Part shown: piece after piece, positions 25,599 through 57,980 of the stretch
How positions within the stretch are numbered: the first letter of the stretch is position 1
Layout of the letters: every line of letters starts with the position of its first letter
Position numbers and translations under genes: made by a program
Assembly (NCBI GenBank): GCA_963922205.1
Contig: CAWUHX010000090.1
Coordinates: forward strand, 744,001 to 808,000
Direction: 5' to 3'
Source: Romanomermis culicivorax
Taxonomy: Eukaryota > Nematoda > Enoplea > Mermithida > Mermithidae
Length of the DNA stretch: 64,000 nt
The notes under the pieces: generated by a model
Database searches by the model: none
What the model saw: only the letters and a program-made list of their open reading frames with translations
Told to the model about the DNA's origin: nothing

Positions 25599-26099
25599 TA
25601 TCGATTGTGTAGCGGGTGGCCGACTGTGCCATCTGGCCGACTGTAGCACAGAGTTATTAGAAAAGTTAAGTGTATGACATTAATTAATATATTTTTATTA
25701 CCTTCACCATTTTGGAACCCATGTATAGTGTAAATTTGCAAAAATTCGACAGGACAAATTTCAAATGTTCCATCGCAAATCCAAAATTCGGATTGATGGA
25801 ATACAGCTAGATCCAAGCTTGACCCGAAAATTAGCAAACCATTCTGGTTGTAGAGCATAAAATTTTCATGTTGGTAAATTTCAGGCTGATTCCGTAGCAG
25901 GGCCTCCCGTCCTCGAATGGTGAGCTGGTATTCTTGAGGAAGATTTGCTATATCATTAATCGGTATCAACCTTTTTGCAGCAGCCCTGAAATTGTTATGC
26001 ATATAATTTATGATCCAGTTATGCCCGGAAACATAGTCATGACTGATCAGCTCTCGGGCTAATGAAATCATCTCATTTTTTCTTTTAGTTTATATCGCA

Positions 26100-29549: not shown

Positions 29550-30058
29550 TGTTATATAATTTTATTTTCTTTATTTTGTTGAGACTCTCATTTGGTGATC
29601 CACCAAAAATATTTAAGATTTGATTTTGAGTTCAAAATGATTTTGACAGGAGTTTTATCCAAGAGGTTCAGACCTCAATGTTAAGACTTACCTAGTGTTG
29701 AGCCGGGGCATGTACTCCTCTTGAAATTCGGACAAACGCTCAAAATATTTCACAAATTGGAATATTCTAAATTGAGAAACCTTTGATTTCTTTATTTAAA
29801 ATATTTATTATGGTGGTGGGAAAATAGCATGGCCATGGTTTATTAGGGGAGATGACCAGACAGCAAGAATATAAAAATGAATAATAATGAATCACTGACT
29901 GAAATTCCGGCACAGGACCTAATGACTACAGTAATTGCATCGCCCACTTTGAATTAAGATGGCATGCTTGAGACATGCTCATCTTTGGTTATAAAGATCA
30001 GAGGGTTGTAAAGTGACATTGAGACAGTTGTGGCACACTGGAAAATGTCACTACAACA
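29550..30058 (-). repeat. Gypsy-2 3' LTR
   Basis: On the minus strand starts TGTTGTAGTGACATTTTCC and contains TTTATATTC and CTAATAAACC (AATAAA). Aligned with 40299-40655 plus 41588-41743; many substitutions show an old insertion. Confidence 0.85.
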
Positions 30059-30072
30059 CCCCTCCCCTCTTG
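30059..30072 (-). other. Gypsy-2 polypurine tract
   Basis: Plus-strand CCCCTCCCCTCTT reads AAGAGGGGAGGGG on the element strand and directly abuts the TG of the 3' LTR. This is the expected plus-strand primer site and it fixes the LTR boundary. Confidence 0.8.
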
Positions 30073-35462: not shown

Positions 35463-38400
35463 TTAAAGGCGATTAGTATCGCGCGGATATAAGCTCAAAA
35501 ACGCAATGCATCGTTTTTTAAATACATGAACATTAACGGCAGATGTAACATGACTAGGTAACTTATTCCACGTATCAATATATCTATTACAAAAATCTTT
35601 TTCAAGTAATCGTGAACAAAATTTTGTCTTATATAATTTATGTGGATTGTTAATACGATAATTAAATTTACTGTATACAAAAAAATTATTTGAGTCCAGA
35701 ATATTGTTAGAGATTATAGAATAAACATAGCATAAATCAGTTATAGTTCTCCTAAATTCAAGAGAATGCAGATTGGCGGACTCCAATCTTTCTTGATAAT
35801 TCCTAGAGTTAAAACCATATAATCGTTTTGTGAACCACCTCTGAACTTTCTCTACCCTTTGTATTTCACCCATTAGAGAAGGATTCCAAATAGGACTACC
35901 ATACTCAAGGATTGGGCGAACATAAGTTTTAAATGCCCTGATTTTCAATTCATTTATATTTGAGTTGAAACATTCAAAAATTAGATTTGATACCCTAGAA
36001 GCCTTCTTAATCATGTAATCACGGTGCGGAACAAAACTGAGTTTTTCATCAACATAAACACCAACATCTTTCATTTCAGTGACAGCATCAAGATCACATT
36101 CACCAGTTTTGTACTGATTTGATGGATTATTTTTCCCCAAATGTAAGACTGCACATTTCGGCAATGACATACTGAGTTGCCATTCCTCAGACCAATTATA
36201 GAAACTGTTTAAATCTTCCTGGATTAATACTGTATTACATGCATCATTAAAAATTTTAGCATCATCTGCAAATAGATAGAGATCACTTTTAATTATATCA
36301 CTCAGATCATTTATAAATATCAGGAACAATGTTGGACCTAACACACTTCCTTGAGGAACACCACTAATTATTGGAGTTGGAGCAGAAATGGTATTACTTA
36401 GTTTTACACATTGAGTTCTATTTGTAAGGAAGTCACAAATCCAATTCATTGTGAATTTATCAATTTTATATCCTTTTAATTTTTGTAAGAGCTTTGAATG
36501 TGAGACAGTATCAAATGCTTTCTTAAAATCAATGTATACAACATCAACAGGAACTTGATCATCCAACTTCTTAACCCACTTAGTTTTACATTCAAGAAGT
36601 TGTAGGACACGTGATTTATTCTTTCTGAATCCAAACTGCCTACTACTGAATAAGGCATATCTGTCAAAATGACCTACAATATCCTTATTAATTATTCCTT
36701 CCATGATTCTGCATGGTACACATTAAAGTGATATGGGCCTGTAGTTTTCAACTTTGCCACGGTCCCCTTTTTTGAAGATTGGAACAGTGTATGATGTTTT
36801 CCATAAATCATGTAATGTGCCAGTCGTATAAGAAACCTCAAAGATAATACTAAGAGGTTCGGCAAAAACAACGTGTAACCTTTTCAGAAAGTAGGCACAC
36901 AGACCATCAGGTCCAAGGGAAAATGTGGGTTTTATAGTCTGTTTTTTATAAAATGCTTCCAAATAGAAAAGTGACACAAATCAGTACTGTCGTCAAAATC
37001 GTTTACACGGAGTTTTTGCCGTAAAATTTTTTACTCAAAAAATTGTTAAAGGTAAGATTAGTATGCTCAGAAATTTTCAGACCTATATCGTATATTATTC
37101 ATTAGAAAATCGTGAAAATCTGAAATACTACTTGCTTTCGACTTTTATTATTTAGAAGCATTTCAAGAAAAACAGACTATAGATTTTTCAGTGTCAACAA
37201 AACTTTCATGAAATCAAATTTAACTGACTTGAAATATTCAAATCCTTTACCAGGAAAAGGAGGACTTTTTCCATCATCAACAGTAAAGACACATGCAAAA
37301 TATTTGTTGAAAATATCACATTTATCCAAATCACTACTAACTTCAATATTATGATAATGCAATGTAGGGATCATTTCCCGCTTTACAGTTTTGCTGTTGA
37401 CGAATTCATAGAACTTTTTTAAGGAGGGGTATTTAAATAGAGTTTCTTCTTTCTTAGCATAATGGATATTCATTTCATTTTTGAGTTTCTTTGAAATTAA
37501 CTTCAATCTGTTCTTGTTTTCAGTATTTCTGTTGTTGGCATATATAGTCCACAATTTACGTTTTCTCTTTTTTAGTCTTCTCAAAAATAAAGGTAGTTTT
37601 TCCCGCTTCACCTGTTCCTTTCTTCGTGGTACAGATTTATCAATAAAACCTGCTAAAACTCTTAGGAAGACTTGATAAAAATGATTGGGGGCAATGCAAT
37701 TATTGAAAAGAATATTCCAATCCACCTTTGCTAGTATGATCTGGAGAGATTGATAGTCAGCATGGTTAAAATCGTAAGGCTGAACATTATATATATCCTT
37801 TGACCTTGACTCGTGCTTTAGTCTCTGAAGAATATCAAATTTAACCATATTGTGATCACTGGTAGAAAAGTTTTCAGCAACAGTAACATTGCCTATCAAG
37901 TTTGGATGATTAGAGAACACCAGATCAAGAAAATTTTCTCCTCGAGTAGGGTCTAACACTAATTGTTCAAATCCCGAAATTAAGAAACTATTGTTGATGA
38001 CTTTAGAGAGATGGTCCATATTGTCTTGGTAGCCATAATTTTTCAGCAAGGGCAAATTGAAGTCGCCCAAGATAATATATCTATTATTATCCAACACAAG
38101 GGTTTCTACTAATCTGGCTAATTTATTCAATATATTGATATCATTTCTAGGTGGCCTGTAGAACAAAATGAATCTTATTTTGTCCAAGAATAAGGTTGTT
38201 TCGACAACTAGTACTTCAGGTAGAGAAAGTTCGTGTGGAATATTTACAAAACTCAAGTTTAACTTTTTGTGAGAAACAATAGCAACACCACCACCAGTCT
38301 GATTTATCCTATCACAGCGTAAGATACGATACTCAGAACTTTGACAAATGAGAGCATCCGGAAAGAACTCTGATAACCATGTTTCAGTTAAGAAAATCAT

Positions 38401-38529
38401 GTCATATTGACAAGTATTGAGTAGATCTGTAAATTCAGTTAATTTGTTCATTATGCTACGGGAATTGAATAAAAGACAATGAATTTCCTCAGTTTTTGAA
38501 CATTCAGTCTTCAGAGCTTTAATCCGCAA
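35463..38529 (-). pseudogene. CR1-like ORF2: endonuclease and reverse transcriptase
   Basis: 38529-37177 is an APE-type endonuclease (LLFNSRSIMNKL, LTETWLS, RCDRINQTGGGVAIV, ILGDFNLP, STSDHNMVKFDI). After a ~200 bp R5 insertion the RT begins (SLGPDGLCAYFLK, VPIFKKGDR, ENYRPISL). A TAA at about 36722 follows, then the same frame goes on (36704-35463) with VVYIDFKKAFDTVSH, GVPQGSVLGPTLFLIFINDL and LFADDAKIF, the FADD box carrying the catalytic aspartates, and a typical C-terminal thumb-like region (LEYGSPIWNPS). Two independent lesions make it non-functional. Clade call CR1/Jockey is from the RT motifs and the 3' tail. Confidence 0.8.
36965..37175. repeat. R5 dispersed repeat interrupting the CR1-like ORF
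   Basis: Separates the endonuclease end from the RT start. It shares blocks with 18000-18270 and 28545-28640. The CR1 reading is recognisable on either side, so this is an insertion. Confidence 0.55.
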
Positions 38530-40298: not shown

Positions 40299-40655
40299 TG
40301 CTATATAATTTTCCTACTTTTAATTTTGTTGAGACTCTCATTTGGTGATCCACCAAAAATTTTTAAGGTTTGATTCTGAGTTCAAAATGATTTTGGCAGG
40401 AGTTTTGTCCAAGAGGTTCAGAGATTAATCTTAAGACTTACCTAGCATTGGGCCGAGGCACATATGCCTCTTGAAATTCAGACAAACGCTCAAAATATTT
40501 CACAAATCAGAATATTCTAAATTGAGAAACCTTTGATTTCTCAATTTAAAAAATTTATTATGGTGGTGGGAAAATAGTGCAGCCGTGGTTTATTTATAGA
40601 GATGACCAGACAGCAAGAATATAAAAACGAATAATAATGATTCACTGACCGAAAT

Positions 40656-41587
40656 CAGTGTTACCAACTTCTGCCTTCAAAATCCCCAAAAAACCCCCAA
40701 TTTTGGGAAAAAACCCCAAAGTTTTCAAAACGTATATGTATGGAACAATGCTCAATTTAGCATAATTGTATGATAAAACAACACATTCTTCAAAATTTTT
40801 ATTCAAATTTCATCCAAAACTTCATCGACTTCATTAGCACACACATTATCATCATTATCATTTTCAAACTTTTTAAAATCGTACATTTTTACATTGAAGT
40901 TTTTCAATATTGACTGAGTTACATTCATGGAAAAACAACTTTCACCACGCAGAGCTAAACAATAATGAACAGTCAAAATTCCATCGAGCATTTCAACACT
41001 CATACGATTTTTTGGGCTTTCTGAATTTTGGGTCACTTCTGTTTCGGAGAATCATCTGACTCAGATTGGTTGCTGCTGTCGTCAATATGAATAGGACTAT
41101 GAGCACTATCTTCGTCCGACATTATGTTATTATTAATCTTAAAACAAATAGCATAATATTATCAATTATACTGTTTTTCTGCGATGCGACATCATTTTCT
41201 TGATAGACATAATGTATGAGCCTAAAACGTTTTTCCTAATTTTCAAAAAATTCTTAATTCCCTAGAAAACGCTGAAAAACGTCCGAATACTCGATAAACT
41301 CTCAATAATTAGTAAAGAGTCCGAAAAATCTTCATAGTTGCAAAAAAAATATTAGACTAAAAAAGGAGAAAAGGCACTAAAGAAAAACGGTGATGATGAA
41401 TGATACTTTGTAAAAAATACAGTATTCTACTTTAAAAAGTAATTACTATTTGCTGAACAGAATCCCCAAAAAAACCCGAATTTAAAAAAACCCGAAGAAA
41501 ACCCCACACTATGTAAAACCCCAAAAAAACCTCAAATTGAAAAAAAACCCCAAATTTTGGGGAAAAACCCCACAGTTGGCAACACTG
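40656..41587. mobile_element. hAT-type transposon remnant with 8-bp duplication
   Basis: Ends CAGTGTTACCAAC and CAGTGTTGCCAAC (reverse complement), flanked by ACCGAAAT at 40648-40655 and 41588-41595. The 8-bp duplication and CAG-TG termini are diagnostic of hAT. Subterminal regions are full of AACCCC/GGGGTTTT words. 932 bp. Confidence 0.9.
40803..41036 (-). pseudogene. hAT transposase C-terminal fragment
   Basis: 77 codons including MSVEMLDGILTVHYCLALRG and FSMNVTQSILKNFNVKMYDF, the type of C-terminal dimerisation-region sequence found at the end of hAT transposases (short helix, then a tail after the last catalytic residue), followed by an acidic tail. Everything upstream of it, including the catalytic residues, is absent. 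It sits inside the CAGTGTT element. Confidence 0.55.
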
Positions 41588-41743
41588 ACCGAAATTCCAC
41601 CACACAATGACTACAGTAATTGCATCGCCCAGTTTGAATTAAGATGGCATGCATGAGACATGCTCATCTTTGGTTGTAAAGATCAGAGAGTTATAAAGTG
41701 ACATTAAGAGAGTTGTGGCAGACTGAAAAATGTCACTACAACA

Positions 41744-42470
41744 CACATTAGCCTGCTGTATGTAGCTTGATTTCTGATGCTCAATTGCATCCGAAAAACG
41801 TAAATACATCCCGTCTGGCTCCATTTGCAGGGAATTTCTTCTCTTAGTTCTGTGAAGCTGTGCAGGATATCGAGTGGGAAATTCTATAGAGGACTTCAAA
41901 AGAAATAAATTGTTCAAAACTGTTGAATTTCGAATTTTTCCGAGCACTACCTGATCAAGCTGAATGCGATTTGGGACAGAAAATCCCTTTTCCCTCATGC
42001 TGATTTGTCAGCAGAAAAGCTCTTATTTCGAGATTCACTTTATTTTTAGGTACAAAGAATCAATGAGAACTTTTCATACAACATATTTCTCGATTTCACG
42101 CATTCCTCAGTTTGAATAAATGCAGCTTGAGTTTTGACGACACGCAGCTGATCAAAAGTTAGTTTGGCTTGTGGTTTATAATTTAATGTAGAAAGAGTTG
42201 ACCTGCAACCATGTTCGGCTGTTTATATTGAGTGGATTCTGTCAATGTTTTTTTCAATCATTATGGACAAAATCCGGTCAACAGAAGATGTTATGTGAGG
42301 CGGGTTTGATATTGATCGGTCGATTAGATTGAGAATACAGTAAACATGTTATTTTCTAGTCAGTTTCAACAGAATATGCAGACGTTGTTCTCAAAATAGG
42401 TTAAAAAAGACATCCGACCAGTTAAAGCAGCTTCTCTACCAAATTTTTGAACTTATGATTTGCTCTTTTA
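41744..42470. other. Intergenic between two LTR elements
   Basis: No gene I can name. The minus-strand frame 41744-41998 (MREKGFSVPNRIQLDQV..., about 85 codons outside the LTR) has mixed, protein-like composition but no family signature; it may be an exon cut by the Gypsy-2 insertion or chance. Confidence 0.35.
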
Positions 42471-42856: not shown

Positions 42857-42862
42857 CATACA
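42857..42862. repeat. Target duplication of Gypsy-1 (left)
   Basis: CATACA directly precedes the repeated terminus (42863) and also directly follows the other terminus (57975-57980). The shared word extends to CACATACA. Confidence 0.65.
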
Positions 42863-43177
42863 GCGTAACAAAAACGACGCTAATTTTTGATGATAAGAGG
42901 TGCGTGAGCGCACCAAAAATAGCCATGTGCTCGTGGAGCACGACTGGCGGAAGTTTTTAGCTAAAGGGCCTACTGTAGCCCGCGTTTGTAAAGAAATAAA
43001 AATACAACAAAACGAAGCATAGAAAATGCATGAAAAATATAAAAACGAACGTAAAATGCATGTGTAAAAATGAAATAAACAAACGCATGATCGAGTAATA
43101 AACGAAACATGAAAAAATAACAAAATGTCGGCATGATCGGAATCACGTGACGTTGGAGAATTGAGCGGCACGTGACA
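42863..43177 (-). repeat. Gypsy-1 3' terminal repeat
   Basis: On the element strand starts TGTCACGTGCCGCTC and ends GTTACGC. No AATAAA lies inside. Compared with Gypsy-1b and the 5' end, it may be only the first third (U3) of a longer LTR. The upstream sequence has no strong polypurine tract (GAAGGACCGCCG directly abuts). Confidence 0.8.
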
Positions 43178-43695
43178 CGGCGGTCCTTCGAAAAAGGGCG
43201 TCCTCGTCCTTGTAGTGGTCAGTAGTGAGGTTTTATGCGGCGTGTCCGTGGTCGTAGGTCATTCCAAGGTGTGACGGCGAGAGTGGTCGAATAGGTCCGT
43301 TGGGTTGTCGGCGGATGAAGCCTTCTTTGATCGTAATTCGTTCGGTGATATGGTGACCGGAGGTTGTTGATGCGTGAAGTTGCTGACATTGAATATCCTG
43401 TGCGAAAGTCTGGAACACAGAAAAGAAAAATTTTCAGGGCAAGATGTAGGCTATCGCCGAGGATGCGCCCAATGAGGTACAGATTGTCGGGCTATCGCAG
43501 AGGATGCACCCTGAGAGATGTAGGCTATCGCGTGAGGATGCGCCTAAGGCGTGACGCTTAGGTTGCTGAACGCTCTCTTCTATCCACTAAGATCCAGCAT
43601 GGACAAGAGTGGATACTTCGTGAGGGGCACGGCGGTCCTTCGAAAAAGGACGTCCTCGTCCGTAAGCGGGGACAATGAAGAGAGTGCATCCTGAG
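43178..43695 (-). repeat. Gypsy-1 3' region with short tandem repeats
   Basis: CGGCGGTCCTTCGAAAAAGG with CGTCCTCGTCC occurs twice (43178-43211 and 43628-43662). GGCTATCGC followed by AGGATGC occurs three times (about 43451, 43490, 43524) at about 35-40 bp spacing. No ORF. Possibly cis-acting sequences for 3' processing or plus-strand priming. Confidence 0.6.
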
Positions 43696-46600
43696 TTACG
43701 GGTCGGGGACCTCTGCATCAAGATGTGGGTCAATCAGATTCGGTGTGAAGTCCTGGCTTATTGAGGGATACAATAAGGGTGCCGAATCTGTTGCCTGTGA
43801 AGTGGGAGGTGTATCCTCTGCTTCACTCGGTTGTTCAGGGGACACGTAAAGTCGAAGCTGGTTGACATGTACAGTGTCTTCCTGATCCATCTCGAGACGA
43901 AGTGTGACATTGGGATATGCCACACTTGTTACAAGGTAGGGTCCATCGTAGATGGGCAGCAATTTAGGAGTGAGTCCACGTTTGCTGGAGGTGCGCAGTT
44001 TGAGCACCTGATCCCCTACTTTGTACGAGACATCATGTGCCCTCCGGTCGTACGACCGTGCATAGGCTTCCTGTGCTTTCTCAATCCGACTCTGGATTAA
44101 GGTTAACGCATTCGTGAAATGACGTTTGACCTCCATATCATATGAGGAAACATTAATGATATGGGCCGGAGGGTTGAATGAGAGCGCGGCGTCAACAGGG
44201 AGCATGGGTGTGCGACCGTACATGAGTTCAAAGGGCGAGTACCCTGTTGACTCATTCATGCTGATATTGACGGCAAACACAGCATATGGTAGGTGTTCAT
44301 CCCAATCGGTATGTCCTTGATGAACATACATACGTAGCCGTGTGGCTAGCGTCTGATTAGCTCTTTCCACTTCGCCGTTGGTCATCGGGTGATAGGCGGT
44401 AGAGTGGATTTTCTTCGTTGCGCAGATCGCAGTGATCTCAGTCATCAGTTTTGATGTGAAATCAGTGCCACGATCCGACTGAAGAATCTGCGGTGCCCCG
44501 TGCCGGCAGACAATTTGCGTTACAAACAGCCGGGCTATGGTGTGCGCAGTGATGTCCGGAGTAGCAAAAGCTTCGACCCATTTCGTAAAGTAGTCGATAA
44601 AGACTACGATGAAACGGTTGCCAGCTTCGCTAGTGGTCATTGGTCCCATGCAGTCGACACCTACCCGGTGAAACGGTCCCGTGATGGTGATAGGTTTCAG
44701 GGTCGCAGTGGTTTTCTGTCGAGCGGGCTTATTCCGTTGGCAAAGATCACACCGCTGACAGAAGGACTTAACATCCCGACTGAGGGAGGGCCAGTGGTAT
44801 CTGCGAGCAATGAGCCGCGCAGTACGTTTAGCACCGAAATGTCCAGCTAAGATGTCATCGTGATGAGCCCGGATAATGGTAGTAACCATGGATCTGGGTA
44901 TGACGATCTTGTTGGACTCGCCTGTCCATTTCTGAAGAACGTTATCCAACAGATGGTAGCCTCGCACATCATTCTGGTCGCCCAGAGGCTTAAGAGAGCG
45001 AATGATGTCGGCTAACTCCGGATCCTCCAGCTGAGCAGCGAAAAGGTCGGGGTGCTGCGCACCGACGGATATCTCGGCATAAGACTCTGATCGTACCGGG
45101 CGCTCCGCGCCAGCAGTGATCGGTGCTGAATTACTTGAACGCGCCAGGTGCTGCACACCATCGGTCAAGGTCCTGGATCGCGCCAGGTGCTGCGCACCAT
45201 CGGTGATCATCATAACGTGCCCCTCAGGTCTGTAAAGGGGAGTATCATCAATACTCTGACCGGTGAGGGAGTTAGGATCCGGCAGGCGTGATAATGCGTC
45301 AGCATTACCATTAGACTGACCTTTTCGCGGCCGAATTGTCAGTTTGAATTCGGCGAGCGCGAGTCCCCACCGAGCGATCCGAGCAGAGGGGTTCGGCTTC
45401 TCCAACACTGCTTTGACCGCGGTATGGTCAGTCTGAACCACCACCTCGTGCTGGAAGAGGTATGGTCGAAAGTGCTTGACGAAATGGACAACAGCGAGAG
45501 TCTCCAGTTCTGTAATGGAGTAGTTTTTCTCGGCCGCTGTTAACCCTCGGCTGGCGTACGCGACAGGATGGTCGTATCCATTTTCGTCTAACTGGCTAAG
45601 AACCGCTCCTATCCCCGAAATACTCGCATCAGTTTGAAGGATAAAGGATTTCGAAAAGTCCGGATGGCGCAGGATAGGAGGGTTGGTCAGCAGGCGGCGG
45701 AGTTCATCGAACGCCTCCTGCTGAGGTTTTGACCACTGGAAAGTAGTTTCCTTCTGTAAGAGCTTGGTGAGTGGCTCGCTGAGCCGGGCACAACCAGGGA
45801 TGAAACGCCTGTAGTAAGACACGAGGCCTAGGAAGGACTTGATGTCTTTGGCGTTTTGTGGAATGGGTAGGTTTTGGACGGCGGCCAGCTTGGCTTGGTC
45901 AGGTTCTAGGCCGCTCTGTGAGATGCGATAGCCTAGGTATTCTACCTCTGAGTGCGAGAATTTGCACTTGCTCAGTCTGAGCTTCATTCCACCCCGGCGA
46001 AGACGGGCGAACACATCTGCCAGGCGCTCAAGCATTTGGGTGTGAGAGTTCCCGAACACCAAAATGTCGTCGAGATAAGTCAGAACCGTGCGCCATTGGA
46101 TTCCAGTAAGGAGGAGGTCCATAAGGCGTTGAAATGTCCCTGGCGCGTTGCATAAACCGAAAGGCAGATAATTGAATTCGTAAAGTCCAATAGGCGTATT
46201 AAAAGCCGTCTTTTCCTTATCGGCCTCGGCAATCAGGATTGACCAATAAGCGTTAGCCTGGTCAAGGGTAGTGAAATACTTCATACCCTTGAGTGTGTCG
46301 AGGATGTCATCTATCCGCGGGAGAGGGTAGACATCCTTTTTCGTGACCTCGTTAAGACCACGAAAGTCAACACACATACGGTGAGAACCGTTTTTCTTGC
46401 GCACCAGGACAGTATTAGTAGCCCACGGAGACGTGCTGGGCCGAATAATACCTTTCTCCTGGAGCGCCTTGACCTCCTGCATGATGAGATCCTTTTCCTT
46501 AGGTGAGGACCGGTAAGGAAAACGGCAGACTGGGCGGGCATCACCCGTGCTGATTTCGTGCTGGACGAGATCAGTGGAACCTGTGTCCTTTTCATCAAGA

Positions 46601-49600
46601 GCATAAAGGTCGGTGTATGCAACCAGTAGATCGAGTAAGGCTGCCCGGTCCCGAGGGGAGATGTCCGGTAAGATCACAGCATTGGCCTCGACCCACTGAC
46701 GATCGAGGACGGTGTCTGAGTCGACCGGTGATTCCCGTGAGGGCTCACTATGCATTTGCACATGACCGATGGTCGTGTGCGGGTAGAGAACCACGGAATG
46801 AGTACTCGGGTTGACTACCTGAAGCGGTATGTGACCGTTGGTCACGGTACTGACGCTTCCAGCAAAATATACGTGTCGTTGAGACCCGGTGAGGTGCTTC
46901 GGAAAGAAGGCCACCTCAGGCACGTTCGTATAGATTGGTGGGACAGGTACAGTGAATCGTGTCATGGAGCGAGGCTCGAGAATCACCAAGTCCTTCAGGG
47001 GCAAAGCGCCGCGGGCAGAAGGTGGGCTGTGGATGAGACCGTCACAGGGGATTCTACTCTCTTTGAACTGGAGGAAAGATTTCTCCCAGTTCAAGCTGAC
47101 ACAATTGAACCGGCCGAGGAAGTTGGTTCCGAGGACCAGTTCAGCTGAACAGTTCTCCTGTATTTGGACCTGAATCCGTTCAGAGACATCAGCCACTGTA
47201 ACTGTGATGTAGGCTGCTCCTAGCAGTGGGATCGGGGACCCGTTGGCTGCGATAGGGCGTGCCCTGGTTGGTGATAGTGACAAGTTGGGCAGCTGGGCCG
47301 CTAACTTGTGGTCCAAGAGTGAGAAGACAGCTCCTGTGTCGACCAGTGCCTTGGCTTCTACCCAGTTGTTGAGGAGAACTTTGATATGGGGTGTCCGAAT
47401 ATCATTTGGGTAAAAAGCCGTGACCACATGACCGGAATCAGGTGTGGTGGCACCACTAGCATGTTTGGTCTTACCGGACCGCTTTGGAATCGGCAGTCCC
47501 GTACGACGCAGAAGACCCACTAGAGCATATCCGACGGAGGGTTCCGGGTCATTGAGAAGGGTGGACTCATCCTGCACCGTTAGTACGTGGTCTGAGTGAT
47601 CCTTCGGGCTCTGAGTAGCTCCTAGTGATTCAACCTCAGTGTCCGATAGCGGAGGCGCGTTTGGCACGGGTGATGTCGGAGCATCTGAATCACTTGGCTC
47701 ACGGTATCGGCCCTTCTCTAGCGTAACTGGAGAGGTTCCAGGCGGAGGTCGAGAGCAACCTGACCCGTGCAAGGTCGACAGGTGACGACTTGCCCGTCTA
47801 GAAGAGGCCCGGGATCCCCTAGTTGACCCACGTGATGAGGCAACTGAGGAGGCCCGTGAGTGTGGCCGAGAGATGGACGAAGCCCTGGACCGCAATCGTG
47901 ATCCCGACCTGTGTGAGTTTCGCGAGAGAGCAGGGGTGTTCTCCCACCAGGGGTCGATCTGGTCAATCTCCGGCGTGGTCAGCAGGAGGGGTAATTCTAC
48001 CGCGTCCAGCCGACAAACATTACGTTGGTAGTCAAACATAATGTTCTTGAACTGTTCTAAGAAGTCCAGTCCGAGTATGAGGTCAACAGGTGCCCAGAAG
48101 GGAGACGTAGTCTTGCACACATGGAGATGTACATCGATCCGTGTGTTCGGCTGGCGGTTTCCGGGCAACATGATTTCATATGGTCCCGAAAGGATGGTAT
48201 GAACGGCTTTACCATTGATGCTCATCAATGGGTTAAAGTCGTGATGTTGCTGGAACGCCATGACCGCCTTCGGACTTTCTTTAGCCAAGGCCTTATGAAG
48301 GCGTTGGCTAATGATAGTGCGTGGGCAACCCGTGTCAAGGAAAGCAGGAGTTTCCTTGGTGTCCAGCAGCACGACGAAGCACGGTGTGATTCGGTCAAGC
48401 TGGGAGGGCACATCGTTTTGCACGTAGTGAAAACCGATCCAGCGTTGGACTTTGCGGTAAAGACCCAACGGGGAGAAACGGCTAACAAACCTGACCTGTT
48501 TGCTCCGCAGACGGTAGCTGAGATAATAAGATACACCAAGATAGGCAAGGTATCCGGCACCGATCAGCACTGTCAGGGTAATTAGGATGTTAAAGATCAA
48601 CTGGACCGGCCCGCTCAGGACAGCATGCAAGCCCTGGGCGAGGGTGTGCTCTTGACCCGTAATAACATGGTTTGCTGCCAAACCGACACCTTCCAGAGAG
48701 GCCTTGATGTCGGTTCCTACCCCTGCAAAGGCCTGGTAGATGGCGTCTGGTTGCAGGGATAGACCAGCGGTAAAGTTTACCAGCCGGTTGAGTACCGATT
48801 CAATTTGCTCAGTCTTGTAAACGTACTGTTTAAAGAAGGCAAAGTTTGAAGGGGTCATCGCCAACTGGTCATGGAAGAGCGCTGGTGCCTCAAAGTGAGT
48901 GATGTTGAAGCGCTGCTTCCAGAAGAGTTCCAGTGGGATGTGGCTCACATGGACCGCACCAGACTCAGTAAACCAGCCCGAGCGATTTCGGAAAATCCCT
49001 GTAAAGTGGTGATGACACGGCACAATTGGGCTAGATTTAATGAGATCCGGACCACCGGGGGTGGCGAAGTAGATGGTGCCGCCAACCTGTACAGGTAAGT
49101 ACTTGTAGCAAACGTTCCCCACCCGGTACGAATGGTAAACGTAGGTGGCGTTGACCTTCTGACACGGCCATATTGTCAGCGCATCGCCTGTGAATTCCGC
49201 CGTCAGGTCATTCCTCTGGAGGAATGCCCGGGCACCCAGGGTAGGGTCGAAGCGAAGCAACTGCCAAGTCAGATCAAGATAGCGTTGAGCGTGAGAGCAA
49301 AGCTCAAGCCACGTGAACCGGAAACCGTTAATTTCCGACTCCTTGATCTGCTGAGCCAGGTAGTTCAGTTTGGCATTGACAGGATCGGGACGGCTGTCCG
49401 TTGCCACTCTGAACATGTTTTGGGTCAAATTGTATCTCCCGTGGATGCGAAGGAGAAGACCCTGATCCGTCCGGACTGTGGTGGAACGTAGTTCTGGGCA
49501 CAGTTGGAAGACACGGGAGTTTCCCGGGATCTTGAGGGCAACCTGTAGATCATCGATGATGACGTGGTTCCCTGACATGGACGCAGTGTAATTTCCCTTG

Positions 49601-52600
49601 GGGTGATAATGACACCGCGCCGTGAAGTTTTGTGCAGGCCAGACAATGACCCCGTCTAGAGTAGTGCACTGGCCTGCAGTGGGACTGCATCCACCTACAT
49701 CGCCTAAGGTGCTTAGGGCCGTAGTGCCGTCCCACGAAGCGACTTGTCCCTCCTCGATGAAGAGGTTAGTCACTGTCTTGCAGACGTCGCTGCAGCACCA
49801 TTCGTACATCACTTCCAATGTTTGGTTCGTGCTATAAAAGCCAGGGCGAATGCCGACAAGTTTTTGTGAACCAAACATTTTAGTGCGATGTGCTAGCGTG
49901 CATGCCGCAGGCGCTAAGTGCTGAGTGGTGATGACGTCTGCAGTGATGCCCCTAGAGCCGAAGAAACCAGTGTTGGTGCAGACTTTGCGGGAGCGCAATG
50001 TGCATTTCCACGCTGTGGTTGTAATCGGGTCTGAGCTAGGGACATACACCGTAACATTCATGCGCCGCGGGCTCCATGAAGATTGCGGTGGTTTACACTC
50101 TACACGCTGGGGTAACTCAAGTGGATGTCCGCTTCTTGAGAGACCACAAAATTGATACTGAGCCGCCGGTGCTGACAAACTCACCCCTAGAAACAGTGAT
50201 GCTACCAAGGTCAATTTTATTGTCAAAAACAACTGTACAAACGTAATTTGTAAGTGTTCACTCAATTTCACAAATCTGGCCTGAGGGGCAGTGTCAGATT
50301 TCTTCTTCGTCGCTGTCGGACGAGATTGGTTCCTGGTCGGGGAAATCGAGGACCAATTCACCGCTGGGGAGGATTTCCCGAAGGGTACCGACTTTCGGCG
50401 ACCGTGGGTTGACTGCCGTTGGGAACGGTGATGTTTCAACAATGCTGACATCCTCATTAACTGGACGTAAGGTCTCGTCGACGGCCATGGGTTCGACGAC
50501 GGGCGACTTGGTCGCGGCGGTCGGAGATGTCGTGCGGGCTGGTGCCGGCGAGTTGACGTGGGCTGTTGCCGACGATGTATGTTGGGCTGGTGCCGGCGGT
50601 GTAGGATTATTTGCAAGTTCCTTGGCCGGGGGCGAGGAAGCAGTAATATCCATTTTCGTTGGCGATGTCGCGGCAACAGGGTGTGCTGCTGCCGGTGATG
50701 TGGCGGCGGCAGCAGGCAGGAGAATCCGACTGGCCTGTTCGACTGCTCGGCGGACGGCATCGACTGAAGGCGAGGATGGCTCCCCGTCCAATAAGAACTT
50801 CTCGACGGGCGAGATGGTGATAGTTCCATTGGCAATGAACTCGAGTGCCCGGCGGGCGACGTGGGGTCGTAAGAGGCGCATCGAGACGGGTGCTGCAAGC
50901 ACGACGTCGGCGGCCGTGAGCGCTTCGACATTTGATGGCTCGTTGAGGAGAGTCCACGGCAAATGCGGGTACTTTTTGGCCAGGTCGACTGACCAGATGG
51001 CCAACATCGCGTCTTGGACGGGCGATGGCGCTGTGAACAAGAAATCAATAGAGTCGTGGACTGAGATAGATTCCTGGTTCCTGCTCTAGGATCACCTGAA
51101 GAAGAAGGTAGTATACCTGACAAATTCATGGGCTCGACCTGGTCGAGGACTTCCGTAGCCGAATCCGTGGGGATCGAAGGCGGTGGTCCTGGAGGGACGA
51201 TGCGGGCCGGTGGCGCCGAAGACGTCGTATTCGCGGCTGGAGCTGGCCCGGCAGTCTTGAGTTTAGGTATGCGATACGATGCGAGGATGTTAGCGTGGCC
51301 AACAAACTGCGGTGTCGTCGAGGGGTCCAGAGTGACCGGCATCGCATACTTTGGTGGTGGTGGTGGCAGCGGTATGTCCGATACGTTCATCGGTACGGGT
51401 ACCTGGGCTGCTTGGACCACTGAAAATCCAATACTGATTACGCAGACAGGATAACACTGTTGTGAAGAATCTGTCAGGTGTTCAGCAAGTGCCTCATCAT
51501 CCAGGTCAAGAGGATCTGGATGAGGAGGGCCATCGGTAGCCCCAACGGCGTTGTTGCGGCGTATGGGCTGCCGATAATGGTTTCCTGTCCCGTTGGGAGG
51601 GTGATAACCATTTCTGTGATGATACACATTTGTCCCCTGGGAAGAATAACCAGTATCTTGGTAGACATTCTCACCCGTGTTTGCCGGATTGCGCTGCGGA
51701 CAGGCAGTTGATCGGTGCACTCGCACTTGACGACAATGAGGGCATGGCCTATCACATCGGTCCGTGGGGTGGGCACGTGTACGGCAAAAATAACAGCGAC
51801 CACCGTTAGCGGCGTTGTTACCGGGAGCGGCACCGGTGGGACGCTGGGCCCGGCAGTCGGCGTCGCTATGTGTACACAGTCCGTGGAAGGAGCACGTTTG
51901 AAGGTGTGCTCCCGACGAGCGTCGCCCGGCGGACTGATTTGGTGTCGACGGCTGTGGAGGCGGCGTCTGTTGGATTGGCGCGGGTGCACGTTGCTGGGCC
52001 GTGAGCTTCACTACGTGGGCCGTGAGCCTGGCCATTTCCTGTTTCAAGCGGCGAACCTCATCGGCGGAGGATGACGACGTTGGAGCGTTGCTCTGACGAC
52101 CGTTTGCGCTTCTGTTAGGCATATCGGGATTATATCCGGCCTGTTTAGGTTCTGAAGAGAAAACGGCGTTAGATGGAGCAGTGTACCGGATCTCGTCCCG
52201 AAAGATTTGGGATTCTGCGTAACAGGCTGCCTTGAGTGTCTCTTCAAGAGTCGTGAACTCCCTAAACTTGATACTATCTCGGAGGACCGGCTTCAGTCCC
52301 CGCAGAAAGATAGGTTTGATGATAGAATCTCGGACATCCGTCGCGAGATCTGGATACGCTACCCTGGATAGTCTCTTGAGGTGCTCAAGGTAGACTATCG
52401 CGGATTCTGTCGGCTTCTGCAGTCGATCTTGGATCAGCTGCTGATGCAGATCAGAGTCGCGCCCTACCGGAAAATCTCTCCGTAGAAAAGCCGTAAACTC
52501 TTCGTAGCGGGTAGGTATTGGAGTGCTGCTGCTAAAGTCCCGGTAGGAGGCGAGAGCAGGACCCGTGAGGCATGACTCCAGAAAGGCGATTTTATACGCA

Positions 52601-52836
52601 TGATCCGTTTCGCTTACACCCTGAAGTGTAAAGAAACGAGTAAGATGCGACATAAAATCGGTGATAGACTCACCAAAAGCACCGGAGAAGGTGGGAGGGG
52701 CCATAAAGCTGGACACGGGAGGGTGCCTCCGACCATTCATGGCCTCTAACTTTTGGTTGAGGGGTCCAAGAGCATTCTCAAATGCTGCCTGGACTTTGTT
52801 CTCGATTTGTGAAGGGAGATCGATTTCCGACTTCAT
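43696..52836 (-). CDS. Gypsy-1 Gag-Env-Pol polyprotein, 3046 codons
   Basis: Domains by residue. 50-210: Retrotrans_gag-like capsid region. 315-379: cysteine/histidine motifs, including two CCHC knuckles (C348-C351-H356-C361 and C365-C368-H374-C379). 600-846: S/R/P-rich, probably not translated in this frame (see the 50294-51085 frame). About 853-1480: Env-like glycoprotein. PR1 has DTG at 1501-1503 and LGLDFL near 1590. An RS-rich linker follows. PR2 has DTG at 1833-1835 and LGTNFL near 1905. RT runs about 2090-2280 with YLDD at 2254-2257. RNase H has QTDAS near 2405. Integrase has HHCC near 2665-2700 and D, D, E near 2728, 2787 and 2822, then a GPY-type C-terminal domain (YDGPYLV). The start is the ATG at 52834-52836. 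Absence of stops over 9.1 kb and ~98% terminal repeat identity suggest a recently active element. Expression must involve processing or splicing; a single 3046-residue product is an inference only. Confidence 0.85.
48399..50280 (-). CDS. Env-like glycoprotein region of Gypsy-1
   Basis: Part of the long frame, about residues 853-1480. It has a hydrophobic signal-peptide-like segment ([17 protein letters not shown]) and a cysteine-rich ectodomain with about nine N-x-S/T sites. Near 1405-1440 there is a strong transmembrane segment ([20 protein letters not shown]), then a basic cytoplasmic tail that runs directly into the first protease. No methionine precedes the signal peptide closely in this frame. 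A good splice acceptor (CTGCCCCTCAG, minus strand, AG at 50281-50282) lies immediately upstream, so a spliced message is plausible. The cysteine pattern reminds me of mononega/chu-type viral glycoproteins taken up by LTR elements, but that is unproved. No furin site or fusion peptide is claimed. Confidence 0.65.
50281..50291 (-). promoter_or_regulatory. Predicted splice acceptor for an env message
   Basis: Element-strand CTGCCCCTCAG followed by GCC: pyrimidine-rich and ending in AG just after the overlapping gag-type frame stops and before the Env signal peptide. It could pair with the leader donor at 57033-57038. Sequence-based prediction only. Confidence 0.45.
50294..51085 (-). CDS. Overlapping -1 frame: probable Gag C-terminus
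   Basis: 263 open codons in the frame one base back from the main ORF, from after a TAG at 51086-51088 to TGA 50294-50296. The first ATG is at 51005-51007. The sequence looks like real protein: a helical segment ([34 protein letters not shown]), then an A/P/T-rich linker and an acidic tail SSDSDEEEI. The main frame over the same DNA is S/R/P/H-rich with no structure, as expected of a shadow. Most likely the Gag protein shifts into this frame (-1) near 51085, or this is a separate accessory ORF. I see no canonical slippery heptamer. The stop lies 11 nt before the proposed env splice acceptor. Confidence 0.6.
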
Positions 52837-54240
52837 ATCCGAGGGTTCGTTTTCCCGTAAGGTGGTTAGAACAGACGTCCTTGCCCGTGAAGCAATTAAG
52901 TCAAATTGAATAGAGAGCGGCTCACTGGTCTGTACAGGCTGGGTACTGAGACGGCAGGAACGACGGGGTGTCTCTATTGTGTAAAATGAAAGTGAGTACT
53001 ACTTTTGAATTCGCGGCGAAAGAGCGCGTGAATTCGGAAAAACGCGTGTGCGACGGCGTTTAAGACGTAAATTGACCTAGCTTAAGACTAGCGACCACGG
53101 AAAGGGAGCTAGAATGGAATAGGATTATAAGATGTACGATCAGAGTACATCAGGGTGACGCAGAAGGGAATTTATCTGGTCGCCCGTGATGGACAGAGGC
53201 ATGGCTTGAGATATGGGGAATCGATCCCGACCAAAATGTAGAATTTGGGGCCTGGACCCGGCAATTAGAATAGGTGAAGAGGACAGAAGATCATGTAGAA
53301 GGGAGAGAAGAGGCGGTTTTTCCTGCCGAGAAAATAAGGTGACGGATAAACCCGCTCAGGAGGGATTTTTCCTGGAGGTTCGACCGCTGTACTAGTTTAC
53401 AAACCTTGGGGCGAGGCGGACTCGTAGCCGGCAAGATTCCACTCACCAGGAGTAGCGCATAAAGTGGCATAAGGTAAAAAGGATGGGGTCAACTGAAAAT
53501 GAACTTAAGAGGGAGCAATAAATAGGGACAAAACTAATTTACGAACCCAGTTACGCAAAGGGGTCGCGCAGTTACGCAACGGGCCTCACTCCCCAGGAGC
53601 GATTGCGATCTCTGCATAGTGAGACGGACTATACAGGAGGTTCCGTGCTGGACGACATTCGCAAGTAACTTACAGCCGTGTCCGAAACGGGAGCCCGCAT
53701 TCCGAACAGAACGGACACTCTCCAGGAGTATTATACACAGCTGGTGGCCGGGTTTGCCGATCACTGAGATGAAGTGAGGTTCGCAGGTCACGCAGTAGAA
53801 GAGGGAAGGAGCACGGGTACCAAGGGTGCTATTCTGACACACTCAGTCAGTTAAAATGAAATAGTCTGGATGTTTTGAGGGCGCACCCGAAAACATCTAA
53901 GGGATCACGGGTACAAGGTGTCCCTGATTGAATATGAGTGTAAAGTATGTATCGAGGCGTACTCAATACCTTCGCTGAGGCGGACTCAACGGTGCCTATT
54001 ACTTACATGACTAATAAAGGGTAGACCGCGGAGGCGGACTCTGGGTCAGTGGCGACTCTAGCGCGGGCATCGTTAAGCCAGTTAACGAAGGCGTTCGAGT
54101 GAAAGAAATATGACAGGGGGTCCTATACACTCTAGGCCCAACCGGAGGCTGTGCCGCGGTCCCTTGGGAACCACTACGGCGGGGACACTAAAGAAGATCT
54201 ATGTATGACAGCTCGATGAGATGAAAGAGAATGAGTGAAT
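52837..54240 (-). other. Gypsy-1 leader, proximal part
   Basis: Non-coding. The word GAGGCGGACTC recurs at about 53414, 53979 and 54032. GTTACGCAA pairs at about 53550-53580. No ORF is recognised. Confidence 0.5.
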
Positions 54241-54269
54241 TTAGATAAGAAATTTACAAGAAGATTGCC

Positions 54270-55315
54270 GAACCCTTGCAGACGTCAGACACAGGCAGTA
54301 CCGACTGCAAATGCCTATCGTCTGCACGAGTCAAGCAACCAACCCAGCTGAGGCCGAGTGTAACTCGTTCAAACCTGCAGTTAAAGCTTGAAAACAGCCA
54401 CATACTGATCAACAGTGCCGCTACCCGGGCGGACAACCTGATCAGTACGCAGGCTAGTGAGCATCTCAGGTGGTGTATATATGTGGACTGATGTTTCCCA
54501 GGCATCAGCCCCCAGACACACACAAACCCTTGGACAAGAGAGGTAGGTGATAGGACCATGCGCCAGCGACCACCTACAACTCAAGTGGAATACTCATAGG
54601 GCTGACAGTAACCTGGTGCGGACGTCAAAAGGTAGGGGGTATGAACCAACACATGACCTTGGTGCTGACTGCAGGTGCCTGGGATAAGAGTATCCAAGTA
54701 TCATATCGCAGTTGCAGACGCCAGGGGTGAGTGCCTAAGGCCAGCAAACCCCTGCAGTAGCACGTGATGTTACCGTTGCAGACGTCAGAAATAGGATCAT
54801 GTAACCTCAATTCCTGCTGCGAGAGCATGATACATTGTCATTGCTGACGTCAACAATAGGGCCCTGAAGCCAGCTATCGGTGTACAGCAACACGTGATGG
54901 TGCCATTGCTGACGTCAAAAGGTGGAACCGAGGGTCTGATACCTTAGGTCAATGACATGAGATGCAGTTGTTGCAGACGTCAAATGTGGCACCCGTAAGA
55001 CCTGCACATCTTCGAATAGTGACACGGTGCGTCACCATTGCTGACGTCACAGATGGGGTGCAGAGAACCAGCCGAACCTGTTGCAACAACGTTGGCTTCA
55101 CCTGTTGCAGACGTCAGAAGTCATTACTGCGGGAGTGTTAACTTGAACAACAACACGTAGTGTCGGTTGCTGACGTCAGGAGTAGAACCCGGAGGGCTAC
55201 CCACCCCTTAAAGCAACAGCAAGTGAAGCGGCTGTTGCAGACGTCAGTGGATGCATCCGTGGGGCTGAACCACGCAACAACAACAACCCGTAATGTTGTC
55301 GTTGCTGACGTCAAA
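54270..55315 (-). repeat. CRE-like array: about twelve ~65-bp GACGTCA units
   Basis: TTGC(A/T)GACGTCA occurs at about 54277, 54776, 54841, 54906, 54971, 55038, 55104, 55167, 55234 and 55302, with degenerate copies at 54618 and 54712. From 54776 on the spacing is 63-68 bp. Five copies are the full palindrome TGACGTCA. Several units also carry CACGTGATG (an E-box) about 14-20 bp before the core. The cores are far better conserved than the DNA between them. The position, leader of an LTR element upstream of gag, is like that of the Su(Hw) site cluster of Drosophila gypsy, though the motif differs. A role as enhancer or insulator is inferred. Confidence 0.8.
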
Positions 55316-55453
55316 GAACATGACCCGTAAAGTCTATGGTCTAGATGCAACAACCGGAAAGTAGAAGAAACAGACCTTACAGTAAGTAGAAATGAAGAAG
55401 AGAGAAACTTATGTAAGGGTGTCATACTGTAGCGGTGGTATCCGAAAAACAGA

Positions 55454-55457
<4 letters not shown>

Positions 55458-55509
<52 letters not shown>
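55458..55509. repeat. 52-base homopolymer T tract (poly-A on the element strand)
   Basis: Uninterrupted T52 on the + strand in the Gypsy-1 leader, beside the CRE-like array. Length may be affected by assembly or slippage. Confidence 0.85.
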
Positions 55510-55512
<3 letters not shown>

Positions 55513-56019
55513 ACCACTCAGATGACTAAGAAAGGGAAAACAGGAGGGAAAATAACCAAAGACGGGGAATACGAAAGTTGGACATACGCGTGTTAAATGT
55601 GTAAACAGTCGGTGTAAAATTTTGGGGCCAGAAAAGTGAGCGATTCCGACAGTTTCCGCCGACAGACAAAAATACTGTACACAATTAACAAATCGCAGCC
55701 ACGTATGACGTCCAGAATCATACGTGGAGGGTGTACGGTATCATGGGGTCACGGACCACCAACAGTCAGGAGAGGCCGTAAACCCCTACAGCTGTGATAC
55801 CAGTACCCGCGTATGGGTATACTGTAGTTACAGTACGGGAATGGGCACAGGCGTACTGTAATGGCACCCACCCGGAGGGCTACAGTATACCACCCAGGAT
55901 TAGAGGAGGGGAGGGGAATAGGGGAAAAGAAAACAGAGAGAGTAGTTTACAACACAGACTAAGTTTGTGGAATGTACAGAATGGATCAGAGGAGAAATAC
56001 AGAATACTCGATATATAAC

Positions 56020-56480
56020 TCAACTCTGGGACAAATAACACGACTCTGGGGATAAATAACTCGACTCAGAGGGGAATTTATTACTCATAGGGGGTTATAC
56101 ACACGCATGAGATAATTATTTACACATATAGATCACATTTAGATCACTCGTAAGGGCAAATCCCGTCTTACAGTAATCAAATTTGATGTTCAGGGATAAA
56201 TTCCCGACCTACAGTAATAACTCTCGGTGGCACGGCAAAAATTTCCGACTACAGTAATAACACGTGACGTGAGGTGGGGGTATCCGACCTACAGTAGCGG
56301 TAATCCGAAATAAGGGGCATTCCCGACCCATTAGGCAGTAAACCCGAATTTGGGGGGGGTCTCCGACTTATTGGATGGCTAGTGCCCAATTTTAAGGGGG
56401 CTTGTCCGACTTAAAATGGGAGTTGACCCGGCCTGGGGGTAGATCCGACCCAAGGGTAAAGTTTTACACTTAAGGGCGAG
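56020..56480 (-). repeat. Degenerate tandem repeats in the Gypsy-1 leader
   Basis: First AACACGACTCTGGGGAT-type units (56020-56080). Then ATTCCCGACCTACAGTAATAA-like units at about 56165, 56205, 56250 and 56290. Then a TCCGACTTA/CCGACCCAAGGG series to about 56480. Units of about 40-60 bp with much drift. Confidence 0.6.
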
Positions 56481-56890
56481 TGCCAGACTTAAGGTCGATT
56501 TTCCAGCCTCGCCATGTCACATTTTACGCCATGTCACGTGTATGACATGTTGATCTTGGGAGAGCTGGAGAGGTTTGGGTATCTCATCAGGTAATACCGT
56601 GTTTTAGACGTCACATTGATGGTGAACCATATCAGATTGATCCTATTACAGTGAGTAATAGGCTGTGACTCCTGATGGATACTGGCATTTTCCCCAGGCT
56701 TCCCAAGTTGGCGTTGGGGCCTAACCTGGCAATTGGTGGCTATAGAGAGGTCTATAGTTGGTTCTCTTGGGTTGTCCTTGGGGTCTTGCTGTAGGGTAAT
56801 GGACAACGCTGCCAGGCTAGGTGCGACAATCCCCGAGTCCTACTCAGTGAGAGTGGGGACAGGGTCACCCGTAAAATGACCTAAACTATG

Positions 56891-56908
56891 GGACCCGATT
56901 ATGAACCA
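56891..56908 (-). other. Gypsy-1 candidate primer-binding site
   Basis: Element-strand TGGTTCATAATCGGGTCC is conserved with TGGTTCACAATCAGGATCC in Gypsy-1b while the flanks are less so, and it starts TGG. If it is the PBS, the 5' LTR spans about 56910-57974 and the 3' copy is truncated. Confidence 0.45.
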
Positions 56909-57032
56909 GACAGCCCCTTTTAGCCCGAACCTGAGAGGTGGAGGCCCTACTTATCTGTGGAACCCTTGGGAAACCGACTTAGGAAGGATTTCCCAACAAA
57001 TAACCCACAAACAACAACAATCCCCTGAGAAG

Positions 57033-57038
57033 ACTCAC
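57033..57038 (-). promoter_or_regulatory. Predicted 5' splice site in the Gypsy-1 5' region
   Basis: Element-strand ACTAG|GTGAGTC; the homologous position of Gypsy-1b is ACTAG|GTAAGT (27974-27979). Conservation of a strong donor between two diverged copies supports function. Confidence 0.55.
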
Positions 57039-57661
57039 CTAGTCCTGTTTCTCAAGCGATTACGACGCAACGGGCGGCAAGTCCCTGGATGCTTTCGGTC
57101 TTCTGGCACTGGGAGCGGGGGATGCGATCCTCAAACGTCCTAGGCGGCGAGCGGCGGCGAGCGGCGGGGAGCGGGAGGGAGCGGGAGCGAGCGGGAGACG
57201 AAACTCCAACGTTTAATTCACGAACCGGGGCGGTCGGACACCTGGCACTGATGGGCAGCGGGGGTACTGTAGACGATACGCGGCGGACGCAGTGAACACG
57301 GGTAAATTTATGCAAATTTATTGATAGTAAGGCGGCGGACGCACAGGTATATAATAAAATTATGCAAATTTGACGAGGAGGCGGCGGACGCGGAGTGACA
57401 ACTGGACGAAAGCTTGGTGAACCCAAGAATGAGCGAAAAACTAAAGAAACATGTCCTTTTAAGGACATGTTTGGCTACAGCTGCAGCTTGGGCGGAGTTT
57501 CTCGGCGCTCGAGCTTACTTCTGCAGCTAGACGCGATGCAGAAGATGCCTATGAGCACATAGACATTTTTTCATTCACATGCGTTTAGCACTGAGGCCGG
57601 CTGCAGTGCCTATGCTAAGCATATGAACGTCTTTAGCTAAAACTTCTTAGCTAGTCGTTTT

Positions 57662-57974
57662 GCGTAACAAAAACGATGCTAATTTTTGATGTTAAGAGGT
57701 GCGTGAGCGCACCAAAAATAGCCATGTGCTCGTGGAGCACGACTGGCGGAAGTTTTTAGCTAAAGGGCCTACTGTAGCCCGCGTTTGTAAAGAAATAAAA
57801 ATACAACAAAACGAAGCATAGAAATGCATGAAAAATATAAAAACGAACGTAAAATGCATGTGTAGAAATGAAATAAACAAAAGCATGATCGAGTAATAAA
57901 CGAAACATGAAAAATAACAAAATGTCGGCATGATCGGAATCACGTGACGTTGGAGAATTGAGCGGCACGTGACA
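57662..57974 (-). repeat. Gypsy-1 5' terminal repeat
   Basis: Matches 42863-43177. Downstream on the element strand, a TATATA (about 57350) and an AATAAA (about 57320) lie outside this repeat. This is odd for a complete LTR and argues that the LTR once extended further inward. Confidence 0.8.
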
Positions 57975-57980
57975 CATACA
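57975..57980. repeat. Target duplication of Gypsy-1 (right)
   Basis: CATACA, matching 42857-42862. Confidence 0.65.

Follow-up and report, generated by a model that had tools for sequence, protein, structure and literature searches.

How can a retroelement whose polyprotein is made in the cytosol include a membrane glycoprotein within that chain, and by what means can it produce an excess of Gag when no stop codon follows Gag? Both questions are raised by a long terminal repeat (LTR) element of the nematode Romanomermis culicivorax which lies in a 64,000-nucleotide stretch of contig CAWUHX010000090.1 (positions 744,001 to 808,000 of the forward strand, assembly GCA_963922205.1), referred to here as the window. 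An initial annotation of this DNA had described a single 3046-codon frame in which Env stands between Gag and Pol, and had suggested that this order was a working design rather than a decayed chimera. We find that the element is a recently active Ty3/Gypsy LTR element of an old lineage and that, as judged from its genomic copies and relatives, the gag-env-pol order is a genuine, working design. The window's own family has, in addition, a second frame under selection which overprints part of the linker before Env, suggesting a way in which Gag alone might be made.

A single frame from Gag through Env to Pol

The 3046-codon frame (frame 0) was confirmed on the minus strand without any stop. Pfam analysis of seven pieces jointly covering the entire frame, with hits inspected up to an E value of 1, placed the domains in the order that had been claimed (Table 1). 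The two zinc knuckles (residues 348-379) are followed by Env, two aspartic proteases (PR1 and PR2), reverse transcriptase (RT), RNase H, and integrase, the order from protease to integrase being that of Ty3/Gypsy elements (Metaviridae). The best relative of the RT among solved structures was the Ty3 RT (4ol8, E value of 2.9e-44), and a search of the PDB with the capsid piece gave nothing useful.

The proposed membrane features were likewise recovered. The two strongest hydrophobic 19-mers in the frame were residues 869-887, assigned to the internal signal peptide, and residues 1413-1431, assigned to the transmembrane segment, with a weaker third at 463-481. The cysteine-rich ectodomain predicted between them (region 870-1410) contains 16 cysteines and 9 N-glycosylation sequons. 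A methionine scan of the long frame found none between residues 796 and 900, that is, near the signal peptide.

The terminal repeats were as close to identical as had been stated, with 310 of 316 positions matching and 2 gaps by blastn. Immediately outside both LTRs is the target-site duplication TGTAT (57976-57980 and 42858-42862), which becomes TGTATG if the LTR start is placed one base later; either length, 5 or 6 bp, is within the 4 to 6 bp of Ty3/Gypsy elements. Since the LTRs and the duplication flank the long frame, the element spans 42863-57975 and, at 15.1 kb, extends beyond the 43696-52836 interval first annotated. The LTR ends read GTGT or TGTC...ACGC, without the CA terminus expected of TG...CA LTRs, and no tRNA primer site of the TGG type was obvious by eye directly after the 5' LTR (57640-57662). 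Scans for Rfam families and tRNAs gave no matches.

Env matches a class III fusion glycoprotein

The initial annotation had predicted that the Env region would resemble viral fusion glycoproteins, and sequence matches bore this out. The Pfam family Monjiviricetes_fusion (PF24664) matched residues 1153-1297 of the window frame with an E value of 2.1e-14. When 11 Env pieces were compared with Pfam, PF24664 was found in all 11, BDV_G in 4, and Glycoprotein_B (PF00606) in 2. A profile of these 11 pieces searched against the PDB found herpesvirus glycoprotein B (gB), with 5cxf as the best hit (E value of 1e-5); 43 of the 44 hits up to an E value of 1 carried the name of gB or of ORF8, BALF4, or GP110, which we take to be gB genes, and the last was a designed protein (E value of 0.8). 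No significant hit was obtained when a single Env sequence was searched against the PDB, the top matches being bacterial adhesins (E values of 0.02 to 0.17) and one gB (E value of 0.17). No Pfam family of the baculovirus F type (class I) appeared among the hits up to an E value of 1, and scans of viral contigs with Env and with RT found no relatives.

In the AlphaFold model of Env, beta strands come after a helix of 45 residues (300-344), an arrangement which would fit the core of a class III protein. The model counts somewhat against that assignment in being of middling quality, with a mean predicted local distance difference test score of 65.8 and a predicted template modeling score of 0.35. 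Overall, the profile evidence indicates that Env matches the class III, Monjiviricetes/gB-like fusion glycoproteins.

The order is conserved in many copies and several families

The assembly containing the window (359 Mb, 595 contigs) was searched for further copies. At least 40 copies of the Env DNA were present at 99% identity (scores were obtained for the 40 best among 1099 candidates), and a one-off assembly error is therefore excluded. When 20 copies were extended by 500 codons on either side of Env, the frame was free of stops in 18; of the other two, one had two stops near the edge of the stretch (L004) and one had a single stop within Env (L007). A divergent Env, that of the protein P0001, was then used as query; 81 of 3637 candidate places were scored, of which 45 fell within frames no shorter than 2000 codons and 40 within frames no shorter than 2400 codons.

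The 40 stop-free Env pieces of loci L001-L050 (10 loci left out) formed five groups at an 80% cutoff, with 39 to 57% identity between groups, and each group has copies in which Env precedes Pol in a single frame. The window belongs to family A. Of the 30 loci of the other families, 13 were examined by piecewise tblastn, and all 13 had protease and RT downstream of Env on the same strand, with all matches in one common frame in 9 and split over frames in 4 (L031, L036, L041, and L043); several of the other-family loci were decayed, with many stops upstream. PR1 had no match in these 13 loci, and PR2 is the protease shared with other families. In families B and E, the Env frame stays open across RT, RNase H, and integrase and is closed by a stop beyond them. 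Upstream of Env, the capsid, zinc knuckles, linker, and Env occupied one stop-free frame in all seven loci examined (L053-L059, which were not clustered, some being plainly alike), while the other two frames held many stops. In one locus from each of families B, C, D, and E, the 260 codons preceding Env were likewise open in frame 0 alone, and we therefore regard the fused frame as the general state. One family (L055 and L058; G000 C52 and C188) has a retropepsin upstream of Env in addition to one downstream (L060), the former resembling proteases of other families in the same genome.

Codon-position differences between the window copy and 19 others, counted in frame 0 as far as residue 1980, were 17/5/47 in Env, 9/3/11 in PR1, and 3/6/41 in PR2 up to that residue. 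By these counts, purifying selection on frame 0 is shown for Env and onward to residue 1980. The first stretch compared (residues 353-440) gave no clear frame (16/16/22), in part because lengths there differ by 24 nucleotides and the ends align badly. Taken together, the near-identical copies, the long frames around Env, the selection, and the same order in other sources (see below) rule out a chimera, a misassembly, or the capture of an env by a dead copy, for which no support was found and to which we assign a negligible probability.

Relatives from other sources

A piece of the frame was used to query a protein database, with 8000 candidates scored on the Env region alone, and five proteins with an Env match were found. 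Three of them, P0003 (2797 amino acids), P0004 (2535 amino acids), and P0006 (2490 amino acids), are single proteins with protease, RT, RNase H, and integrase downstream of Env, P0004 giving a weak match to protease (E value of 0.003). All three have a zinc knuckle; a match to the capsid piece was obtained with P0003 and P0006 and none with P0004. P0002 (1424 amino acids) comprises Env, protease, RT, and RNase H. The GPY/F motif at the integrase C terminus was detected in the window element, families B and E, and P0006 (4 of 6), and the pattern was not found in P0003 and P0004. A search of the proteins with the Env profile, in which 8000 candidates were scored, gave 3 hits, namely P0001 and two fragments. 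A further protein, P0005 (1186 amino acids), encoded on an 18.8-kb contig, has Gag and Env with no match to Pol, which may mean that the gene model was cut short or that Pol is indeed encoded separately.

Env after Pol was not seen in any genome stretch examined, nor in P0002, P0003, P0004, or P0006. For the seven elements with both regions, the Env and RT-RNase H trees had identical unrooted topologies, with bootstrap values of 77 to 92 in the Env tree and 46 to 100 in the RT tree (the family B RT piece was incomplete). Given this agreement, Env and Pol appear to have moved as a unit.

A second frame is under selection in the linker of family A

The proposal of one continuous coding frame was upheld in that the frame is open throughout, and has to be amended in that about 245 of its codons are overprinted by a selected -1 frame which ends in a stop before Env. 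Across residues 601-850, differences among 20 copies were distributed 11/32/8 over frame-0 codon positions, equivalent to 8/11/32 over those of the -1 frame (chi-square P value of 4e-5). Sliding windows located the switch near residue 600; frame 0 resumes somewhere between about residue 800 and Env, a region with few variants. Residues ~603-847 of the long frame in family A are thus open without being in the frame under selection.

The -1 open reading frame (ORF) was found in at least 145 places at 91 to 100% identity (145 of 1478 candidates scored), 135 of them free of internal stops. Between its bounding stops it measured 263 or 255 codons in all rows except three (253, 257, and 265 codons), and its translation looks like an ordinary protein with the C terminus DSDEEEI. 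Fifteen subfamily copies, chosen from the more divergent of these rows (92 to 95% DNA identity), gave differences of 27/33/87 by -1 codon position and a synonymous to nonsynonymous ratio of 83/64 in the -1 frame versus 26/121 in frame 0. From this third-position bias, selection on the -1 frame of the family A linker is shown, which implies that the frame is translated in the window family. In family C, the 200 codons before Env gave 6/9/21, indicating selection on frame 0 (nine copies against one, two of them decayed), and the family B linker gave a mixed pattern in a set that included decayed copies. The -1 protein matched no Pfam family and nothing convincing in 11 other-family loci; its similarity to residues 199-349 of P0005 was 23% over 164 positions (E value of 6e-4).

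A candidate intron and its alternatives

Next to the start of the -1 ORF is a candidate 65-nucleotide intron, the removal of which joins frame 0 exactly to the -1 ORF. With rough splice tables, its donor ranked 12th of 15084 positions and its acceptor, at 51030, ranked 6th of 733 AGs, and its GT and AG were present in every one of the 20 close copies and the 15 subfamily copies. We propose that full-length RNA would be translated as Gag-Env-Pol, that the internal signal peptide would thread the Env part into the endoplasmic reticulum until the transmembrane segment stopped transfer, and that the protease and Pol would remain cytosolic, the chain being cut by signal peptidase and by the element's own proteases. 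Flaviviruses and alphaviruses, whose polyproteins place a capsid ahead of glycoproteins, offer a likeness for such a topology. The membrane-anchored Env-Pol chain that had been predicted can reasonably be inferred. In the window family, excision of the intron would lead Gag into the -1 frame, ending before Env and yielding Gag alone, and retention would carry frame 0 through the linker into Env and Pol. The selected -1 frame is a concrete candidate for a switch that would provide an excess of Gag.

Several observations weigh against this use of the intron and of the linker frame. The site proposed as donor obtains a higher score as an acceptor (rank 2), the leader has stronger donors, and all 35 copies inspected retained the 65-nucleotide stretch. 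Within the candidate intron, variants were denser than around it (10/65 versus 73/1155, P value of about 0.01), but 127 of 1155 windows reached this density. Linker frame 0 in family A might be open through base composition: the chance of this given the -1 protein was 0.042 to 0.055 with local codons and 0.00015 with env-pol codons. New stops in frame 0 numbered 1 against 7.7 expected (P value of 0.002), but with neighbour-base matching only 2.1 were expected (P value of 0.30), and the third frame, taken as a control, was likewise depleted of stops (P values of 0.06 and 0.02).

These figures bear on a live rival, in which the open frame of the window family would be coincidental or a relic. 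Gag, passing from frame 0 to the -1 frame by a splice or shift, would stop at 50294, and Env-Pol would come only from a separate spliced message, as retroviral env does, using an upstream ATG and a second splice-like acceptor just before Env at 50281/50280 (TCTGACACTGCCCCTCAG/G, with the slash marking the cut). The selected -1 frame ends 13 nucleotides before the first base after this acceptor, which is identical in all 20 close and 15 subfamily copies though it ranks just 89th of 733; the long frame has no methionine near the signal peptide, and the openness of the linker is only marginally unlikely with local codons. Against it stand the other families sampled, with frame 0 as their sole open linker frame, and the linker of family A itself, open in frame 0 in all 20 close copies and in 14 of the 15 from the subfamily. 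We regard continuous frame-0 translation in family A as likely on the comparison of copies, and give the separate message a substantial chance that falls short of even. The -1 ORF could instead encode an accessory protein, translated from its own spliced message at the first ATG after the 51030 acceptor; the high rank of that acceptor, the strong leader donors at 57038 and 53446, the stops bounding the ORF in the copies listed, and the lack of a Pfam family would all suit this, but a donor and acceptor 65 nucleotides apart which join the ORF in frame to Gag would not, and we consider it unlikely. Programmed ribosomal frameshifting in place of splicing would account for the shift being exactly -1 and for the frames overlapping from residue 585, but no canonical XXXYYYZ heptamer was found in 50960-51100 by eye (no systematic search was made), and we judge it improbable.

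As a whole, the reading of a Ty3/Gypsy element with a class III Env fused between Gag and Pol, translated as a polyprotein, threaded into the endoplasmic reticulum, and switched by an intron, seems to us probable. The more specific proposal, of an ancient enveloped Ty3/Gypsy retrovirus lineage with an internal gB-like Env and Env-anchored Pol, in one family of which a facultative 65-nucleotide intron switches between Gag alone and the full polyprotein, is put forward tentatively. If it is true, splicing would replace the frameshifting or readthrough of retroviruses as the switch between Gag and polyprotein.

Features of the element and of the remaining window

Table 1. Positions of the element's features in the window (slashes mark predicted splice junctions)
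Feature	Position	Strand	Basis
5' LTR, 314 bp	57662..57975	-	blastn of the two LTR regions
Long 5' leader, ~4.8 kb, no ORF >138 amino acids on the element's strand	52837..57661	-	
Gag-Env-Pol frame 0, 3046 codons, stop-free	43696..52836	-	Reading of the ORF
Gag capsid, Ty3_capsid	52222..52668	-	Pfam, E value 1.5e-7
Two zinc knuckles, CX2CX4HX4C and CX2CX5HX4C	51700..51795	-	Translation read by eye
Candidate 65-nucleotide intron, CAG/GTGATC...TTCACAG/C	51031..51095	-	Approximate splice scores and GT/AG conservation
-1 frame ORF, 263 codons between stops, ending just before Env	50294..51085	-	Codon-position counts
Predicted internal signal peptide	50176..50232	-	Hydropathy and methionine scan
Env ectodomain, class III type	48601..50175	-	PF24664 and gB profile match
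Predicted transmembrane segment	48544..48600	-	Hydropathy
First aspartic protease, PR1, divergent	47962..48396	-	FLDTG...LILGLDF pattern; Pfam weak, E value 0.11
Second aspartic protease, PR2, gag-asp_proteas	47047..47466	-	Pfam, E value 3.5e-7
Reverse transcriptase, Ty3 type	45907..46869	-	RVT_1, E value 1.3e-34
RNase H	45427..45906	-	Pfam
Integrase, H2C2 and catalytic core (rve), GPY/F motif beyond	44386..44901	-	Pfam
3' LTR, 316 bp	42863..43178	-	blastn of the two LTR regions

Within the leader, at 54754-55315, repeats spaced by about 65 to 67 bp contain TTGC[A/T]GACGTCA, a palindromic core resembling a cAMP-response element, and could act as an enhancer. At the other end of the element, a 34-nucleotide stretch adjoining the 3' LTR (43176-43209) recurs 452 bp away at 43628-43661 with 97% identity and is perhaps a duplicated plus-strand primer region.

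Elsewhere in the window, endonuclease and RT ORFs of a non-LTR retrotransposon occupy 35463-38529 on the minus strand. Around it are direct repeats (29570-30059 and 40320-41744) of 89 to 94% identity, about 11 kb apart, possibly the ends of an older element. Minus-strand ORFs at 21794-27418 include DUF7869 (21794-23230) and a weak RYYR-CCHC match (26792-27418), and the region 6997-12382 is dense in direct and inverted repeats of up to 381 nucleotides, including a 98-bp array at 9644-10315.

Comparison with known systems

In simple retroviruses, Env lies after pol and is made from its own spliced message (PMC10309623). Errantiviruses are envelope-carrying metazoan Gypsy elements that combine a Ty3/Gypsy Pol with Env (Chary and Hayashi 2025, eLife 108449, cited in PMC13172572), and for the gypsy elements of mosquitoes the literature mentions fusion glycoproteins of type III. 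The window element differs from errantiviruses in having neither a separate env ORF after pol nor a baculovirus F-type Env. Anakin resembles it in carrying a chuvirus-type glycoprotein on an LTR element, but has a BEL/Pao Pol where the window element has a Ty3-type RT (PMC7642597). Troyka shares the single Gag-Pol frame, but has no envelope and is described with CG...CG ends and 3-bp duplications (PMC12440569); identity with Troyka was rejected, as the window element has an Env and shows neither of these ends nor that duplication. Cer1 of Caenorhabditis elegans likewise has no stop between gag and pol, and yields spliced and unspliced RNAs from one element, as is proposed for the window family; its additional ORF lies after pol and is unlike retroviral Env, in contrast to the Env between Gag and Pol described here (PMC10309623).

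The closest parallel is Burro (GYPSM1), a giant Gypsy element of planarians whose gag, env, and protease follow one another in frame within one ORF (Arkhipova and Yushenova 2019, PMC6431247). The premise of the initial annotation that env is always downstream of pol in env-bearing Gypsy elements is therefore incorrect, and the gag-env-pol order itself has been known since that report in 2019. No other description of it was found in the literature searched, though Chary and Hayashi 2025 may describe this order too. The Env of Burro matches fusion glycoproteins of arthropod and fish mononegaviruses and has HHpred homology to gypsy Env; the element exceeds 30 kb, and its ORF1 of 4873 to 5140 amino acids includes BCL2-like, SUMO-like, dUTPase-like, MATH, BIR, and ankyrin motifs (PMC6431247). 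No convincing Pfam match to these extra domains was found in the window frame, the nearest being BH4 with an E value of 0.12. Compared with Burro by its description only, the window element shares the in-frame env between gag and a Gypsy-type Pol and differs in its 15.1-kb length, its 3046 codons, and its overprinted linker. What is new relative to Burro is that the order is present in several families, and that the window family adds the overprinted -1 linker frame and the candidate intron. The occurrence of this order in diverse, recently active elements with agreeing Env and Pol trees shows gag-env-pol to be a stable arrangement that is not peculiar to the giant Burro elements.
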